Source: Rhodotorula mucilaginosa (lineage: Eukaryota; Basidiomycota; Microbotryomycetes; Sporidiobolales; Sporidiobolaceae). Taken from it: a DNA stretch of 64,000 nucleotides. Position numbers and translations under genes: made by a program. How positions within the stretch are numbered: position 1 is the first letter of the stretch; the number at the start of each line of letters is the position of its first letter. Below are positions 53,455-64,000 of this stretch, piece after piece. The stretch lies in contig CP137872.1 in assembly GCA_034406715.1 (NCBI GenBank), forward strand, positions 682,001 through 746,000, read 5' to 3'. The notes beneath the pieces are model-generated. The model made no database searches. It was not told the DNA's origin and was given only the letters and a program-made list of their open reading frames with translations.

Positions 53455-54744
53455 CTAGGCGAGAATCGGAGCAATCCCCTTTTCAATGTCGGCAAAGACG
53501 GCGTCGATCGACTTGGACGAGTCGATCTGCAAGCACATTGCGCAAAGAGATGAGTTTGAGCCGTGATCAGTCTGACATCTGTGTGGAAGGAAGGAGGAGA
53601 GGAAGAACTCACGTCGACGACCTTGCCCTGTTTCCGGTAGTAGTCGACGACCGGCATCGAAGTCTCGACGAAAGTGCCTGCAGATACGAAAGCGGTTAGA
53701 GTCTGACTAGCGAGATCTCCCCTACACAGCCCGCTCTGGTACTATCCCCGAGGCGAAGGGGATGTGCGGCAGCAGCGAGCGTGCGTGTAAATGAAGCTCT
53801 TTCGCCAGAACTCACGGAAGCGCTTCGTGATACTCTCGGCGTTGTCGTCGTCGCGACCCGACGTCTTGCCGCGTTCCAGCAACCGCTCGAGGAGGATGTG
53901 TTCGGGGCAGACGAGGAACAGGACGAGTTTCGACGGGCAGACCTGTCAGAAGTGGGAGCACGGGAGAAATGACGTGTCAGCATCTTCACGAACGAACGCC
54001 AATGTAATCATACTCGCCAGCAGCTCCTCTGCGCGCGTTGTAGTGCGAATGGCCGTGCGGACGCGACACGACTCACCGACTCGTCAAACTTGATGGCCTG
54101 GTCCATCTGCCTCGGGAACCCATCGATCAAGAACCTCCTCGCCGGGATCGTCGCCTGCTTGGTCGCCTCCTTGCCCTCGCCAGCTTCCGAGCTCATGGCG
54201 GCGCGCATGGCATTCTCGAGCAACTTGATCGTGACCTCCATCGGGACAATCTTGCCCTCCTTGATGTAGTCCTTGATCATGGCGCCGAACTCGGACCCGT
54301 CGCGGTTCTGTTCGGCGCGGAGGAGGTCGCCGGCTGCATGGGTTATGCGGGGAGGTCATACAGAAGGAGGCGTGTAGCATCAGCGGTGTGCGGGTTGGGA
54401 GGAGGCCCTTGGCACCCTGTGCCAAGACAGTCAACTGACCCGAGAGGTGCACGAAGCCGTGTTGCTTGACGAGTTTTGCGCACTGGGTTCCCTTGCCTGC
54501 AAGTCGTGCGAGAGTCATGGCGTGGATCGAGGTTTTTGAGTTCAGTGAAATGAGATGATCGAGGTGCAACAAGAGACCACGGTCAGCGCCCGCCCGCTCT
54601 GAGCAGGGAGACACGCGTTCAAAAGAATGCGAGCTGGAGGCTAGGCTCACCTGCACCTGGACCACCGAGGACAAAGACGACGGTGACCTCTTTCGGGTCA
54701 AACGCGGGCGAACTCGTGGCGGTCGATGTTGGGACGGCGGGCAT
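53455..54744 (-). CDS. URA6: UMP-CMP kinase
   Basis: Phosphorylates UMP and CMP with ATP in pyrimidine nucleotide synthesis. It starts [20 protein letters not shown] (ATG at 54742-54744). The P-loop [15 protein letters not shown] is split by an intron after GGPGA. Then [16 protein letters not shown] (NMP-binding), [37 protein letters not shown] (the DGFPR signature), [28 protein letters not shown] (LID with Arg residues), [19 protein letters not shown], and a C-terminus ending GIAPILA at 53455. Roughly six exons. Length and the short LID match UMP/CMP kinases rather than long adenylate kinases. Confidence 0.93.
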
Positions 54745-54932
54745 GGCGGGCGCGGACAAGCTCGAGGGCGGGTGAGAGAAGAGTTACGGGAGGGGTATAA
54801 GGGTGATCTAGTGAATACAGGTGTGTGTGTGTAGAGAGCGTGTGGGAAAGAGAGGGAAAAGAGAGAGCAGAGAACACGAAAACAGGGGCGACGCGGCGAC
54901 GACACCGCCTACTGCGGAGGGAAGACGGGCAA

Positions 54933-55109: not shown

Positions 55110-56046
55110 GACTCTTTCTGATGATCGAAGGCGATTCGAGGAACGAGTCGGCGGTCGAGGACAAGGTCCAGGCCGAGGAGGAGGACGAGACGGAACTGAG
55201 TCGCTTCCTCCGCTCAATCTGACACTTTGCGCTGATCGAGACAAGACGGGGCACAAGAGAGAACGCCTTCAAAGATAGCAGGCGCACTCAGAGATCGCTC
55301 CCCGGCTTGCTCCATCGACGGAAGGTCGCCTTTCCCTCTCCTCTCTCCCCACTTGCTCCGGTAACCACAAACAGGCGCTTGCGCTTGCGCTTCCGCGTCC
55401 GCAAAGAGGCGCTTGGCGCTTCTGCTCACCTATGGCCCCGGTCTGCTTGAGGCTCCGTGTGTGGACTCGCATGGTACAGATGGACGGGTCTGACCGTTCA
55501 GAGTCCTGCTGAACGCTCTGGTGCGTGCGGCAGAGCGCCCGAAGCTTTCGAGCCGGATCGGGATTGCCGGCTTTCTCCCCCCTCAACGGTGGAAAGGGTG
55601 TCCACAGACGCACGTGTACTCCCCTAGTCTGATCAAGCTTGCTCCCCGCAGTTCTCTCGTATTCAACGGTCTGCGACGATGCTGGCACAAGCGCCTTTTT
55701 GGATGGAAGAGGCGCTTCGCCCAACTCGCCAACGGTGCTTGCAGGGATGCTGGGAAAACCTGGGAAGGTTGTAACCTTGGAATGAATTGTATCTACCGTT
55801 TGCAACGCCAGGAAAAGCTCGTGGGAGAGACGGAGACGCCGACGAGAAATAAGGCAGCAAAACTCGGCTTTTCGGGGCTTATTTCTCATCGCAGAAGCCA
55901 CCTCTGGCTACACTTCCTCGTTCTCGGCGAGCGTAGACATGGACGCTGCTATTCCCGAACCAGACGAACAAGATGCTAGCGGCTGCTAGCCGTTCCCGGC
56001 CGTCGTGCAGAACCGCCGGGAGAGGAGAACAGGTTCATCACCAGCA
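55110..56046. other. Gene-poor flank left of the transposase gene
   Basis: About 940 bases with no gene that I can support. A minus-strand open frame of about 210 codons (55269-55901) has no recognisable domain, and its middle is Arg/Ser-rich as expected for chance frames at this GC. A small palindrome, GCTAGCGGCTGCTAGC, lies at about 55975-55990. The left end of the mobile element may fall here, but I could not identify a terminal inverted repeat. Confidence 0.4.
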
Positions 56047-59000
56047 ATGTCCGACAACCCGTTGGAGGCCAGGACCACACCACGCGGGCACTGGTCGGCC
56101 ACTCAATCTCGTCAGAAAGGAGGCAGATTCGGAAAACGGGCGCCGGACGCGGCGGCGAGCGAAGCGCCGACCAATGTCGATGACACGCACTCGACGAACG
56201 GCGAAGGCTCAGAAGGGACAGCAGGCTCGCAGACCGCCGACGTGGAACTGCACGCCGACTTGAGACCTGAGTACGATCGCCCAAGCGAGGTCAGAGACCG
56301 GTCTCCGCTGTATTATCAGTCGGTGGCGGCCGAAGACGAACAGCCGCAAGCGACTGAGGAAATCCTGACCGGTATGTACGCAGTTTTACTAGCAAAGTGA
56401 CCAATGCTGATGACATACTTGATAGTCATCTACTCGTCTCAGTTCCCCGGACAGGATGGACCGCGCGTCCGCCAGACAGTCATGTCCGCCCCAGTCTACC
56501 GGACTCGCTTTGGCCGGCTGGTCTCGCTCGGCCACGTGTGGACAGGGGTGCAGCCGCTGACAGGAGTGCCATCTGGAGTAGAGCTGGCAGGTAAGAGCCA
56601 TCTCCGCTGCCTCTCTTGCGCACTAGCCGCTGGCCGCTCGCTGACAGATTCATGCAGATCAAGGTTTCGACGGCCGGTTGACCTATGCAGTGGTACGCAG
56701 GGGAGAACTCGATCTTTGTCATACAACAGGCGACTATGAAAATCTCGCGGAGCGTTACTTTCGTGAACCCGCAAGGGCGCGAACGTCGCGCTCCGTCCTG
56801 GAACTCGAGGCCTTGAAGGGTGTCGCGCCCGAGGCGTACGACGACGGTCTCTTTGCGTGGCTCGAACCTGATGAGCACAGCATCGTCTGTAGCGTGAGTA
56901 CCGGGCCACGTCCCTCGCTTTCACGGACAGAAGAGCACAAACTGACTCGTGGATCCGCGACAGGTCAATGCCTATTCCACTTTCAAAAGTTGGCTTGCAA
57001 AGCCAATACAGTCTGAGAACAGTGCGAATTCTTGTAAGTTCTTCGGTACTGGAGTGTGCGAGGGTTAGGTGCACGAGCGCCGGAAGAAGAAACTCCGATT
57101 CCGCCCCTGTCGGGGAAATTTTGAGGGGAGTCTTGCGAGCGCTGTACAGAACTCTGACTGCGGTCTTGGAGCATGTATGCAGATCGGATCGCTGCAAACG
57201 GGACCGCCGAATCGCCAGTCACCGCCAATTCGCAAGAGACTACAGCCGTCAATATCAGCGTCACGCCTGCGCCGGTGCCGCCGTCCAAGACCGACGTGCC
57301 CATTGACTCAAGAGTCCAGGAGGCACAGGCAGCACAGTCCCAGGTGCCGTGCGAGCTCTCCATCTCGGTGGCTCGCCCGAACGGTACTTGGCCCACCGTT
57401 CTTCGAGTACCGATCCGCCGAGATAAAGCCGGAAACGCCCGTCTGCTCGAGAATCCGGTCTGGTCGCTCAGCAACCCGGGTTCGCAGATGCGCAAGCATC
57501 CGGAAGCGAGCCGGGGGATGGTCAAGGCTCGAGCGCGACGGTGCCAAGGACTTTCCGTCTGCCCGAACGCGGGCTGTCATGGTCCAATTCGGCCGCTTGT
57601 CCGGCCATCCGCCGAAGAATCACCGTCGGCAGCGACAGCCAGCGCCAACGAACGTCGGGACGGGCCGAGTAGGACAACCGTCGAGCAGGAGGGCGGGACA
57701 AGAAGCGAGAAGCGGAAACGGCGGCAGGATACGGAGCGCCGGAACGGCCAATCGACTTGCCGCCTGTGCGGGACTGTCCTCCAATTGACACCCTGCCCAG
57801 CCGTCTTCGTCATCGCTGTCCCCGAGCCGGACGATGTCGAATGCGAGGTCTGGCACATCGGCTACCATCAGCACGAGATCCCGCCTCTCCGGACCGTTCC
57901 TGCTGCTGCCGCTGCCGAGCTGCGTGCTTTGTCCGCTGCCAACCTGGACCTGACGCCGGCACAGCTGCGGATCGGCCGCGACGTGCTGGAGCCGAATCGT
58001 GCGTCGTACCGTAAGCCAGCGATCTCGATCGATCCGAGGTTCGCCAACCTGCGGGCAATCTCGGTCACCAAGCCGCATAGCGCTCCGCCACGGCTGTCAA
58101 AGCGTGATCCTACGTACCCTGGAACTCTGGCTACTGCTGTGCTTGCCGAGTTCAGTGCCGCTCGACCGAATACTTGCTCGGACCTCGCCTACGAGGACAA
58201 CACGTTCAGCTTCTCGATCGCCACGCCGTCGATGCGCGCAGTAGCGGCAGCCGGAGGTGACACGATCCCACTCCGGGCAGCACTTCGGCGTTCCGGGCTC
58301 GTCACCGACACCCACAACACATTCTTTGCCGGGACCTGGCGCTTGATCGCCACCGTCGCTTTCGACATCCCGACATCGAGATGGGTCCCGGTCCTCTGGA
58401 CGGTGACTTCGCGCGAAAACGCCGTTGCATACCGACGTCATTTCAACTACCTTTTCGACATTTTGTCCGACGCCGGTCTCTCGTCGGAGGACATTCTGCA
58501 AAGAGTGCTTTCGGTTTTCGACTTTTCCGCATCGCAAACCTCCGGCTTTGACCAAGCATTCGCCCAATGGTTCAGTCGCGCAAGCTTTGGTGAAGCGACA
58601 AGAGTCGCCGACATCTACTCGGAGCGTCTCCGGGCGCAAGCCCTGGTTCCGGAAGGCGAGCTCGACGATCCCGAAGTTCCTTCACGCGAGGCGGCACTTT
58701 CTTACGCCCTTGACGAATCGACTGTGGCTCTTGTTGAAGCGCTCAAGCATCACCTGCTCGATTATTCCCAGAAGGAGCGGTACGACGTCGGCCTGAAACT
58801 GGCCGAGTGCTCCCGACGAGGATGCCTCCGTCACTTCGAGGCAAGCGTCGGACGAATCGCACGATCCAAACGGGGTCCCGGTGCTACCTCAGCAGAATGG
58901 AGTCGTCTCGCTATGAAGCTGAGTCGGGTGACTAGCGTTGAGGAGCACCAAGAAGTGTGCGAGAGGCTCCACACCGGTTGGCCGCACCTCGACTGGTGGC

Positions 59001-61800
59001 TCAACTGGTGGAGTCGCCCCTACGCCACCGGGATGCTGGTCCCTGCAAGACGGGACATGGGTCCGGCCGATGTCCTCGAGGTCCCCGAGACCTCGAATGC
59101 CGTCGAATCGAGCCATCGCCTCCTGATTGTCAGCGCCGGTGGCAAAAAGTTCTCCCTCGAGGTCGGCCTTCGCCGCTTGTCCGACTTCGCATCAGGCTTT
59201 GAGCTCATGCGACACCCAGCAGGCAAGTTTATGTGCTCCCCTTAGACACTGCTCTCAACCTTATCTGACCACTTCTTGTCAACAGCTCAAGCTCATGCAA
59301 AGAAGCTTCCCGCCCGATCCGGAACTCTCGTGGAGGAGCGCCCGCCACAAGTCAGGAATGCGATTCCGTCAACCTACAGGAACGACGGGCGACCGCATAC
59401 CCCTCCCTCTGGATCCGAGCAGGAGGGCAGTCAAAAGAAGAGAAAGAGGCGTCGCAAACGCAGCAAGAAGGCTCCGCATCCCTCGGTTTTCCCACCGCCG
59501 CCGTCCTCAAATCATGTTGATGGCACTTGGGCTCGTACCGTGCCATCTGTGGTAGCAGCAGCTCCTGCTCGGGCTCTCCAGGACGGCAGCGACGACGGCT
59601 ACGACGACCGCAGCGATGACGGCCACGACGACGGCAGCGACGCAGACCTTGCCGAGGAAGACCTTGCGGCCAGCCTCTCTCTCGATCGCGACGATCCGTC
59701 CCGAGATGACACCGATCTGTTTTCGACAGCTGGACCACCCTTGCTGCTGGACGAGCTGGTGTGGTGCCGCGGCGGATTTCCTCGTCGAGACAGCGGCGCC
59801 ATCGTCCTTTTCGCCTGGGACGCAAATTCATGCTGGCTCGATAGCTTTGTCTGCATTGCAGCTCGCTGGCTTCGATATGATCTTGATCCAGCTTTTGCTG
59901 TGAGTGATCTCTTCGCCTCCGGCTCTCTTTCGCCCGCTCGCCATGTCGTCGTCGAAAGTTTGGACTCAATCTTGGCCCTCATGGCTCGCGATATCGATGC
60001 AAGCACGCTGGCGAGCGCCTACACCCAGCTCTCGGCCGCGCGAGACGAGCTTCGTCATGCGCTGGTAAAGGCTCGGCTCGTGCAGAGCATGAAAAGTCAA
60101 GAATCACTCGATGTAAATTTCGGCTTTGCGGTTTTTTCTTCTATGATCCCTCGACTGTTGCTTACAGCTTTTACTTGTTCAGACCTGGTTTGGCCTCCTC
60201 CTAGACGGCTACTGCTACGGCAAAGCTGGAACTCGAGGAGGTCCGACATCAACAAGCCGCTCAGCAGAGGTGATCGATCTCTTCGGAATCCGGATGTGCA
60301 CCGTCGAGCTCTGCGCTGCGAACCATCTCGCCCACTCGGTCAGTCTTGAGCCGGTGAGCCAAGCACTGCAACTGCAGGCCTACTTCGACTTTGTCGATGT
60401 GGTCGCTTCCCCGTCGACGCTTCAAGACGCTTTTGAAGAGCTCGTTACTCTCGAGTCGCCGTCGCGACCTATCTCAGGCTGCCGGATCGGATGCAGCGTG
60501 GCTGATCAGCGTAGCTGCTATGCACCCGCCGTCTCTATCCGCGGGGTGATCTCAATGCCTAGCTACCTGCGCATCAACATCCAAGATACCGACCTCGCCG
60601 TCGGGAAAGGGCCAAAAGGCCAGCCGGCCTACCGGCGTGGCGAGTTCTGGTCCTTGGCGCTGACTCTCTCCGTTGAGGGAGTCACTGGGGTATGGCAGCT
60701 GGTTGGTGTTGCCGACTGGGACCAGAGACATTGGTGGACCGACGTTTTCACCGGCGATCAGGAAGTGGCTCGTCTCGACCCGCTGGCCAGTACCAACGCC
60801 ATCCCCAACACTACCCCGAAGCCGCACGTTCCACCCTTCTCTTCCTCTGCTCGGACCGCGTTTTATCGCTATTCGGGGACCGCTGCTCAACTCGCGAGCT
60901 TCAACAATGCCCTTGCCGGGTTTTGGAGCACCCGCCCCGGCCTCTGCATGGTGCAATTCCCTGGAACCCTCCTTCATACCGCCAGACATCGTCACCGAGA
61001 TGATATGCTTGATGTCCGGCCCCGCGCCGAGCTCTCCGAGACAGTCTGGGACCCACTTCCGGACTTTCTTGCCACTCGATCTCAGCGTTCCGAATTCCAA
61101 GCCGCATCGGTATGTCTGCTTTCTTCTGTCTTTCATCTCTCATTTGTTGACAGCATCAGAACTGACATGTACCATTTTGACAGATTCCATTGTATCTTCA
61201 GACCAAGCTGGCCAATATGATTCCGAGCCAGAAAAAGCAGGTGAGTTCCGTGGCATGAAGCCTTTGCTTCCCATCCTTGTGAAGGGCCTCAATGTCCCCA
61301 TACACGGAGAGTATACGCTTACCTCCTCTTCTACAGGGTGCCCGACCCCAAGGACGTCGTCATCCAGGTCAAAAGTGCAGTGTCTGCCAGACGCCCGCTG
61401 CAGTCAAAGCGCAGGCTGAGAAGTTAGCCTGCATCTTGTGCAGCCAGCAGGCACACAGAACCTGCGTCAACCTACCGCCCTCCTTGCTGTACTTTCTCTG
61501 TGACTCCTGCTACACCCCCGCTCTCATGGAAATTCCCCTTGAAATCTGAATCAAAATCGAGTATTCACCAACCTTGGGCCAGAAAGCTTCTCAAGCTGTT
61601 ACATCATCCTAGACAGATCTTTGGGCAAGCGTTCTTCTACATATTGCTGCTTACAGAAGGAGGAGTCGGGAGAGAGCCGGCAAGCGGTGAGCTCGAAACT
61701 TCCAACCCGAAGAAGCGCCTGAGCCCCCCGCCCAACACTTTGCAGAGCTAGGGAAGGGCTGCGGACCGCATGCGCGACCAAGATTAGCAGCCAGAACGGT
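55980..61800 (+). mobile_element. Probable Mutator-like DNA transposon body (ends not found)
   Basis: The body is inferred from the transposase gene at 56047-61549. Both flanks are gene-poor and unlike the dense gene order elsewhere, supporting insertion between the small membrane protein gene and the Vps2 gene. The limits given are only approximate: no terminal inverted repeats or target-site duplication could be recognised by eye. Confidence 0.4.
56047..61549 (+). CDS. Transposase-type gene: GCM1/WRKY zinc finger, DDE core, USP-like protease, PHD finger
   Basis: Nine exons: 56047-56371, 56426-56590, 56658-56893, 56964-57033, 57183-59222, 59286-60112, 60183-61109, 61184-61240, 61337-61549; 1,619 residues, open throughout. 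Residues 1-265: novel N-terminal region. About 385-497: Cys/His pattern RRCQGLSVCPNAGC then CRLCG-x8-C and H-x3-HQH, as in the fungal GCM1/WRKY-type finger. DDE candidates: Asp about 641 (VTDTHNTFF), Asp about 712 (VFDFSASQTSGFDQAF), Glu about 907 in TSNAVESSHR. About 1126-1131: NSCWLD, like the USP cysteine box, with a candidate His about 1404 (DWDQRHWW). About 1562-1606: C4HC3 PHD-type finger. The intron at 59223-59285 starts GCAAGT and joins both halves. It resembles Mutator-like transposases of basidiomycetes; whether it still moves or is domesticated is unknown. Confidence 0.78.
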
Positions 61801-62914
61801 TGATGCAAGACAATCAAGAGCTCTGCCAAGGTTGTGTGAGGAGGAGAGAAGAGTAAGACGAGAGGTGGCAAAGACGGCCTGCTCCTTTTTGATATGTGAG
61901 CGCGGCGTGCAGCGATGGCGAGACTCTGAGCGGCATATTCTGCCCTTGAGAAAACTTGCCCACGGGCCGCTTTCGATGAAAGGTGCTCCGGCAGTGGCGG
62001 CTTTGACAAGATTGCCTTGAAGATGAGCGATGAGGCACAAGTAGACACGACGAGAAGTTCTCGCGGGCAATTACCTGCTTTTCGAAGAGATCACAGCCCT
62101 TACAGAAAAGTGTGTTCTCCAGTGTCCAGCAACGCAAATCTGCAGCTGCGATGTGTGCAAATTTAGGGGATACCAACAAGTGATCTTCCGTTGCTTACTC
62201 GTGTTCACGCGCACTCACTAGGCACTTTTATCTGTCATCTTGGCCTGACGGAGCAAATCTCGCACATGAGTTTGACTCTGGAGCCTTTGTGAATGCTGCA
62301 TTGCCCAGATTATTGCGCACACAGGCAAGTCTGGGGAGAAGAAACCGAGCGCGAGTCGCGCCACTCGCAGATAACCTCCGGACTGAACTGAGGAAGAGGC
62401 GACAACTATTCTATGCCTATTAGAGTTGCTGGGACGCCTTAGCTTCTGACCAGCAGGTCTTGCATGTTGCCGAGAGTCGTCAAAACGGATTTTACGCTTG
62501 TCACTCTTGAAAAGCGAGGTGGTCAAGCAGTGTAGGCCCGAGTGGCGCGAAACTTCGCACCCTGGGCTCCTATAGGTCAAAAACCAGCCCTCCACAAGTT
62601 CAGCCTATTTCAACGGCGGTAGAGGTCTGCCGAGCGAGGCGCTTGTAGGCAATTGTAGGAATTATCGGAATAGAGCTGAAAGCCTTGTCGCGCAACATAT
62701 CGATAATCTGAGCGGTCAAAATGGTCGTGAAGGTGTCTGAAGCTGTTCAGGGAAGAAATCATATCCATAGAGCGCATACTTGCTGAGATCAGGCAAGCGC
62801 CTTTGCATGCGCGCTTCAAGCGCCTCTTTGTAATGACCGCACTTGCTCCGCCCCGAGGGTGCCAATTCCCGCACAGCTCAATCCAACAGAGACCAGCTAC
62901 ACACACAAGCAGAT
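61550..62914. other. Gene-poor stretch between the transposase gene and Vps2
   Basis: About 1.36 kb, lower in GC than the rest of the window. Open frames (minus 61599-62048, minus 61814-62179, minus 62218-62595) are rich in Ser/Leu/Arg and show no domain. It could be the element's right end, remnants of an older insertion, or simply the Vps2 promoter region. Confidence 0.4.
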
Positions 62915-64000
62915 ATGAACATCATCGTCAGTCCGAGGCCCTCCCGCCCCTACCCCTCGACTCGATTTGCCCTCCACGACCGCTGACATCAGACATCCCT
63001 CCCCGACCGCAGGACACCCTCTTTGGGCGGACAAAGACCCCGGCCGAGCGACTCCGCCAGCATCAGCGGGCACTCCAAAAGGCTCAGCGGGAACTCGACC
63101 GCGAACGCTCGAAACTCGAGCAGCAGGAGAAGAAACTCATCCTCGATATCAAGAATGGCGCACGCAAGGGAGAGATTGTCAGTCAAGTACCCCCGCACGC
63201 ACGCACGCACGCACGCACCCGAGAGAGAGGGAGGTTGAGCTGACCCCGTCGAAAGTATTGCCATTGCAGGGCTCGTGCAAGGTCATGGCCAAAGACCTCG
63301 TCCGGACGCGGCGATACGTCTCGAAATTCTACACCATGAAGACTCAACTGCAGGCGATCAGCTTGAGGATTCAGGGTATGCGGAGTAATCAACAGATGGC
63401 AGAGGCGATGAAGGGCGCGACGAGGGTCAGTCGGTCTTCTTCGTTCCATTCGTCGTTCGTTTGGCGCTCCTGGGACGACCCATCGCGTCCGGTCGTGCTG
63501 CGTTTGAGCCTACGAAAAGGAACTGACTGACTGAATTACGTTCACTCGTCCTCCCGCGAGCAGGCCATGTCGCTCATGTCGCGGCAGATGAACCTGCCCC
63601 AGATCCAGCGCATCCTCCAAGAATTCGAGCGCGAGTCGTCCATGATGGACATGAAGGAGGAGATGATGGGCGAATCGATCGACGACGCCATGGAGGACGA
63701 CGTGGGCGAGACGGAGGAGGAGGAGGGCGACCGGATCCTCGACGAGGTGCTCGTCGAGATTGGCGTCAGCGTCGGTCAGCAGGTGCGTTCCCCTCTTTTT
63801 TCTTCTTCTCTTTCTCCGGCCATGTAAGGTGTGTGTACTGACGCACAGGTATACGACGCCCATCACAGCTCGGAGAAGCGCCGACCTCGATGCCGGCGAG
63901 CAAACTCTCGGAACCGGGCGTCCGCCGCGCCGTCGCGATCGGCGAGTCGTCCGGCCCAGGCGGCGGCGGCGGCGGATCGGCAGCTGATTCCGGCGCGGCG
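62915..64000 (+). CDS. DID4: ESCRT-III subunit Vps2/Did4 (CHMP2-like), 3' end outside window
   Basis: Part of the polymer that buds vesicles into multivesicular bodies and recruits Vps4. Exons: 62915-62926, 63013-63177, 63270-63425, 63564-63782, 63869->64000. The first coding exon is 12 bases (MNII), joined to DTLFGRTKTPAERLRQHQRALQKA. Then basic helix RELDRERSKLEQQEKKLIL, MAKDLVRTRRYVSKFYTMKTQLQ, MRSNQQMAEAMKGATRAMSLMSRQMNLPQIQRI and the acidic helix EEMMGESIDDAMEDDVGE. The last exon is Gly/Ala-rich and should lead to the C-terminal MIT-interacting helix beyond the window. The acceptor at 63868 was chosen over one at about 63848 because it keeps an acidic/Gly linker in frame. Confidence 0.92.
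63193..63218. repeat. (GCAC)n microsatellite in a Vps2 intron
   Basis: About six tetranucleotide copies followed directly by a GA run, inside the second Vps2 intron. Confidence 0.9.

Follow-up and report, generated by a model that had tools for sequence, protein, structure and literature searches.

The 7,481-bp span at 55359-62839 of the window (the whole 64,000-nucleotide stretch of Rhodotorula mucilaginosa DNA that was analysed) is a complete, structurally intact cut-and-paste DNA transposon, and it encloses a nine-exon gene. Its inverted ends, its target duplication and a second copy in the genome support mobility. The best explanation, in which we have good though incomplete confidence, is an intact Mutator-type transposon whose gene would combine a zinc cluster, a DDE transposase, a protease-like region or its remnant and a PHD finger, with intron 5 acting as a switch. 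The initial annotation of this DNA had overlooked three features that were found here: the terminal inverted repeats, the duplicated target site and the deleted second copy. The boundaries of the element are as follows.

55350-55358, no strand: left target site duplication CACTTGCTC, an exact 9-bp repeat of 62840-62848
55359-55381, plus strand: left terminal inverted repeat CGGTAACCACAAACAGGCGCTTG, with 4/23 mismatches to the right end
55374-55717, plus strand: left subterminal GGCGCTT repeats, starting at 55374, 55408, 55415 and 55711, and at 55689 on the other strand
62817-62839, minus strand: right terminal inverted repeat, read from outside as CGGTCATTACAAAGAGGCGCTTG
62840-62848, no strand: right target site duplication CACTTGCTC, an exact copy of the left one

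The first sign of these ends came from a repeat search, which returned an inverted and a direct repeat lying roughly symmetrically around the gene. We then scanned for paired ends of 23 bp that differ at no more than 5 positions, lie 2 to 9 kb apart and are flanked by a perfect 9-bp duplication. With thresholds set after the pair 55359-55381/62817-62839 had already been seen, the pair 55359/62839 was the sole match across the whole window, and 20 Markov-shuffled windows gave 0 matches. Counted over both strands, the window has 21 occurrences of GGCGCTT, of which 9 fall within the element's two non-coding ends (1,978 bases), and AAGAGGCGCTT starts at 55404 and 55707 within the left subterminal region. 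Because of the inverted ends, the 9-bp duplication and the second copy, we regard the gene as part of a real mobile element.

The initial annotation had proposed a genome-wide search for further copies, and we searched the 20.35-Mb genome with a pattern from both ends, allowing 3 mismatches. The results revealed 3 places, namely the two window ends and one on contig C17, and the reversed-pattern control gave 0 matches genome-wide. With its duplications, the window element occupies C9:737350-744848. The left end of the C17 copy has the same 23 bases as CGGTAACCACAAACAGGCGCTTG (at C17:277353) and is 88% identical to the window element over 487 bases. The copy is 2,058 bp long (C17:277353-279410; L008 5354-7411), is internally deleted, and carries pieces matching 60908-61269 at 83% and 61618-62802 at 74%; it also has its own right end, which the end-pattern search had missed. 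In its flanks the target duplication agrees at 7/9 bases, AAGAGGCGCTT lies at left-end offsets of 46 and 348, nearly as in the window, and its protease-region remnant includes a stop. Genome-wide, AAGAGGCGCTT occurs 24 times, 3 of them in each element copy. By this comparison the C17 copy reads as an older, internally deleted relative of the window element. The second copy is a deleted one; full copies numbered at least one, the window element, and we counted this against the best explanation as regards recent activity.

On the right of the element, pieces of a Snf7-domain (ESCRT-III-type) gene lie at 62915-63827, with a presumed ATG 66 bp from the right target duplication, and the element may sit in the promoter of this gene. 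On the left, a minus-strand frame at 54084-54905 has a weak AAA_17 match (19.1 bits against a cut-off of 27) and looks nucleotide-kinase-like by eye; the element may therefore lie between two divergent genes. The C17 copy lies close to a sugar-transporter-like frame. Two insertions, in the window and on C17, prove no preference for gene starts.

The gene model and the motif series within it are as follows.

56047-56371, plus strand: exon 1, with the start codon at 56047
56426-56590, plus strand: exon 2
56658-56893, plus strand: exon 3
56964-57033, plus strand: exon 4
57183-59222, plus strand: exon 5, with the zinc cluster and the candidate DDE transposase core; relatives P0001 (99%) and P0002 (85%)
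57542-57874, plus strand: GCM1/WRKY-like Cys/His cluster (C386, C392, C397, C458, C461, C470, C486, H490, H494, H496)
58307-59107, plus strand: putative catalytic motif series (D641, D712, C813xxH816, W865-875, E907)
59223-59285, plus strand: intron 5, 63 bases, GC-AG, with an in-frame TAG at 59243; the fusion hangs on its splicing
59286-60112, plus strand: exon 6, with a basic KKRKRRRKR, an Asp-rich stretch and the NSCWLDSF Cys box (C1128 at 59831)
60183-61109, plus strand: exon 7, with the candidate protease His (H1404, at 60729) and an Asp 16 residues on
61184-61240, plus strand: exon 8
61337-61549, plus strand: exon 9, with the PHD-like C4HC3 finger and the stop

Nine exons had been said to join without a stop into about 1,619 codons, and the joined translation indeed gave 1,619 residues with one terminal stop and none internal. 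Of the eight introns, seven have GT-AG borders, and intron 5 is GC-AG (donor CAG/GCAAGT). A CTRAY branch-like site lies somewhere in 6/8 introns, in intron 5 at 21 bases before the intron end, and each of the eight, if retained singly, truncates the protein early.

The Cys/His cluster and the Asp-Asp-Glu candidates that the initial annotation had described were all located, with D641, D712 and E907 as the acidic series, E907 in SNAVESSHR, and Trp residues between the second Asp and the Glu (W865/870/871/874/875). By its motif order D-D-CxxH-W-E and its 9-bp duplication, the predicted transposase fits the Mutator-like type. The label of a GCM1/WRKY zinc-finger DDE transposase was borne out for motifs and ligands, whereas no Pfam profile recognised either part; the GCM1/WRKY resemblance, including the comparison with GCM1 itself, is one that we presume. 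The Pfam MULE profile gave no match in the protein at E ≤ 10 (hmmscan) and none genome-wide at E ≤ 0.001, the GCM profile (PF03615) at E ≤ 10 gave one match in the genome, outside the window, no Pfam match fell on 57485-57919, and NCBIfam gave no match. A DUF6074 match (E 0.036) was below its cut-off and was dropped. An AlphaFold prediction of exon 5 with three sequences had a mean pLDDT of 32.4, too poor for a fold search. PDB matches of the finger region to OGG1 (E 0.52-0.75; 0.076-0.55 in a second search) and a match to ribosomal protein L5 (E 1.4) were at chance level and were dropped.

The GCM profile match outside the window (C4:996404-996619; 19 bits, E 0.014, 2 TAG inside) was dropped as chance and was not taken as a second GCM element. 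A tblastn search of 18 kb around it, with composition correction and filtering off, gave low-identity matches in biased sequence (among the matches listed, best summed E 1.4e-08 at 23% identity), and a loose scan for ends and duplications gave two unconvincing pairs with 6/20 mismatches. By eye, in the first 10 kb, the match runs antisense to long host frames.

Among 7,994 candidates scored in a protein search, exon 5 had two relatives, P0001 (99%) and P0002 (85%). Exon 6 has a 98% relative (P0003), which consists of this exon with read-through into intron 6. The relatives found span exon 5 or exon 6 alone; when 7,984 candidates were scored against the full-length 1,619-residue protein, none was a relative at E ≤ 0.001, and scans of the viral and prokaryotic collections yielded none. 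In P0002 the cluster keeps 10/10 ligands, and both Asp, the CxxH and the Trp cluster are conserved; E907 is present in the window and in P0001, and P0002 stops short of that position. In protein comparisons with region boundaries of our own choice, identity between the window and P0002 was 137/140 around the first two Asp and 93/100 just before them, 33/38 and 43/48 in the finger halves, 30/44 in the loop between the halves, and 72/99 in the part of exon 5 N-terminal to the finger. Past the second Asp it was 46/60 just before the CxxH and then 73/87 around it. Such uneven conservation is the pattern expected if selection has acted on a working transposase. P0002, whose contig is 35.9 kb long, stops short of the third catalytic residue and may be a broken copy or enter an intron there. 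At 58055-58072 the window reads AISVTK where both P0001 and P0002 read AISEVTK, a one-codon difference.

Among the predicted accessory domains, the PHD-like finger is the best supported. Its C4HC3 ligands are complete at 1563-1607 (C1563, C1566, C1581, C1584, H1589, C1592, C1604, C1607). The PHD finger of the initial annotation was backed by this pattern and by the Pfam PHD match to exon 9 alone (E 5.6e-05, full model length), but the score of 23.5 bits falls 0.5 bit under the curated cut-off of 24; with the whole protein it was 14.5 bits (E 0.037). A PDB match of exon 9 to the PHD-containing chain 2ysm (E 0.2) was too weak to count.

The region between the transposase and the finger had been called a USP-like protease, a membership that found no support here. 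The Cys box and the His are present, but the UCH profile (PF00443), which at E ≤ 10 matched 35 places in the genome, had none in the window, and hmmscan likewise gave none. The NSCWLDSF box (C1128) is followed by H1404 and then by an Asp 16 residues on, which gives the order Cys-His-Asp; Cys-His-Asp/Asn order is a weak criterion, with several D/N within 26 residues of H1404. No Pfam match to Ulp1 (peptidase C48) was obtained in the protein. In Ulp1 the His comes before the Cys, whereas here the Cys box stands before the His; this papain-like order argues against Ulp1, and both points separate the window element from the Ulp1-bearing Mutator elements. AlphaFold prediction of exon 7 alone reached a mean pLDDT of 33.4, too poor for a fold search. 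PDB matches of exon 7 to thioesterases (E 0.46-0.52) and of exon 6 to a TGF-beta receptor (E 0.75-0.79) were dropped as chance level. At about 59435-59690, exon 6 encodes the strongly basic KKRKRRRKR and, after it, an Asp-rich segment of repeat-like character; together they may form a linker that carries a nuclear signal.

We lean towards the region between transposase and PHD finger being, or once having been, an enzyme. That the second half is free of an enzyme, its middle a decayed or unrelated passenger domain, has a considerable chance of being right, somewhat short of even, and is compatible with the transposon reading. It would account for the silence of UCH and the other profiles and for the lack of a usable AlphaFold fold, and a Cys-Trp-Leu box with a distant His could arise by chance. 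The succession of Cys, His and an Asp 16 residues past the His speaks for an enzyme instead, as does a frame that remains open across exons 6-9. Mushroom genomes also encode many proteins in which an NSCWLD-type box follows a MULE-like domain. Should the middle region be enzymatic, its most plausible role would be to strip ubiquitin or SUMO from the transposase or from repair proteins.

Exons 5 and 6 share one frame, parted by the TAG at 59243, and retention of intron 5 would yield a 952-residue protein still holding the entire D-D-E series. The element could contain two genes, one for a transposase that stops at 59245 and another, under a promoter of its own, for the protease/PHD part. This arrangement, which we consider distinctly unlikely, would suit a stop only 20 bases beyond the GC donor, and GC-AG introns are rarer than GT-AG ones. 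Two ORFs are also described for some Mutator-like groups in the available text of PMC6446971. The exon-6 frame, however, has no ATG from the TAG at 59243 to past the Cys box (59825), the first being at 59981, and an independent gene would have to begin in a further upstream exon not yet seen or at a codon other than AUG. Since this frame lacks an ATG from the upstream stop to the Cys box, one fused gene is likelier than two; the missing ATG and the strong GC donor of intron 5 together tip the balance towards a fusion, and we predict from the DNA that the transposase and the accessory half belong to one gene. Inclusion of the PHD part further requires splicing of introns 6 to 8.

Domestication as a host gene of transposon origin would agree with the single full copy found (a lower bound) and with the strong conservation in P0002 around the first two Asp. 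Such genes usually lose their ends and duplication, whereas this element retains both, the 9-bp duplication without a mismatch, and has a deleted relative elsewhere in the genome; we judge domestication very improbable. The length of exon 5 bears on a further alternative. Exon 5 lies within a 695-codon stop-free frame, and the longest stop-free run per simulated 64-kb sequence (n = 20) ranged from 309 to 582 codons; since 695 codons exceed all 20 simulations, this frame is beyond chance in GC-rich DNA, and the other exons do not exceed chance by length alone. That unrelated frames were linked by wishful splicing is hardly credible: GC-rich DNA does yield long chance frames and 2/8 introns are without a CTRAY branch-like site, but exon 5 outruns every simulation, its conservation is uneven and domain-like, and the joined exons lie inside a pair of inverted ends flanked by a duplicated target site.

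For the intact Mutator-type transposon that we favour, the following mechanism can be proposed. The zinc cluster would bind the element ends and the subterminal GGCGCTT repeats, and the D641/D712/E907 site would excise the element and insert it at a new place through joins staggered by 9 bp. At the C-terminus, the PHD finger might aid the choice of chromatin, such as gene starts. The middle region, with its papain-like order, would be a ubiquitin-/SUMO-type protease or its decayed remnant; as a protease it might shield the transposase or release it once cutting is done. Whether the accessory half is attached would depend on splicing of intron 5, the GC-AG one. A bolder proposal, which we think unlikely as it stands, is that the element represents a Mutator-like family of yeast-like fungi which makes two proteins through intron 5, a 952-residue transposase when it is retained and a 1,619-residue form with a divergent deubiquitinase-like enzyme and a PHD finger that reads histones when it is spliced, and that the choice of form tunes cutting against targeting and escape from turnover. 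Intron 5 offers a simple handle on the function of the accessory half, and an element this compact, with its single gene and defined ends, would be a convenient system in which to test the role of accessory domains. A genuine protease here would have to be divergent enough to escape current profiles.

Known elements provide the closest comparisons, each taken from the available text of its source. MULEs make 8-11 bp target duplications (PMC6446971), and CxxH and a W between the second D and the E are MULE transposase features that were mutation-tested in Muta1 (PMC5225508). Like the window element, MULEs, fungal groups included, have a 9-bp duplication, inverted ends, the D-D-CxxH-W-E order, a zinc cluster and a deleted derivative (PMC6446971, PMC5225508); the window element differs from them in its lack of a Pfam MULE match, its nine exons and the extended accessory half at its C-terminus, which includes a PHD-like finger. 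One further described MULE DDE element has a related MITE sharing its TIR and TSD; its TSD is 10 bp, and the available part of its description mentions no protease or PHD. Rehavkus shares a 9-bp TSD with the window element and has a PHD finger in its transposase, comparable to the PHD-like one here, but has arthropod and annelid hosts and a minisatellite, with no protease mentioned in the available text (PMC6446971).

Mutator transposons with an Ulp1 protease occur in hydra, lancelet and plants and, like the window element with its candidate region, pair a DDE transposon with a ubiquitin/SUMO-type cysteine protease (PMC2836005). Ginger1 transposases carry Ulp1 or OTU domains, and Ginger1-9_HM has Ulp1 and PHD after the DDE, so that transposase, cysteine protease (a candidate here) and PHD stand in one protein, as in the window (PMC2836005). 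Ginger1, however, has a Gypsy-like integrase and CCGG/CCGT-type duplications, in contrast to the 9-bp CACTTGCTC and GCM1-like cluster of the window element (PMC2836005), which on its duplication falls outside Ginger1. In Trichomonas a transposase_11 protein is joined to a peptidase C19 domain, again a transposase with a deubiquitinase domain, but from another transposase family and with a recognised C19 that is absent from the window (PMC2836005).

The initial annotation knew of no element with this domain order, which, for the kind of architecture, was too strong a claim: Ginger1, Ulp1-Mutator and the Trichomonas C19 protein (PMC2836005), together with the PHD of Rehavkus (PMC6446971), make the kind already known. 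A single gene with a GCM1-like cluster, a MULE-like DDE, a protease-like region of Cys-first type and a PHD, in this exact order, did not turn up in the literature searched, whose coverage of WRKY-GCM1 fingers was incomplete. DNA transposons have repeatedly acquired ubiquitin/SUMO-type proteases and PHD fingers, in Mutator and in Ginger1 (PMC2836005), and the window element appears to be an uncommon version of this known arrangement of a transposase with accessory domains.
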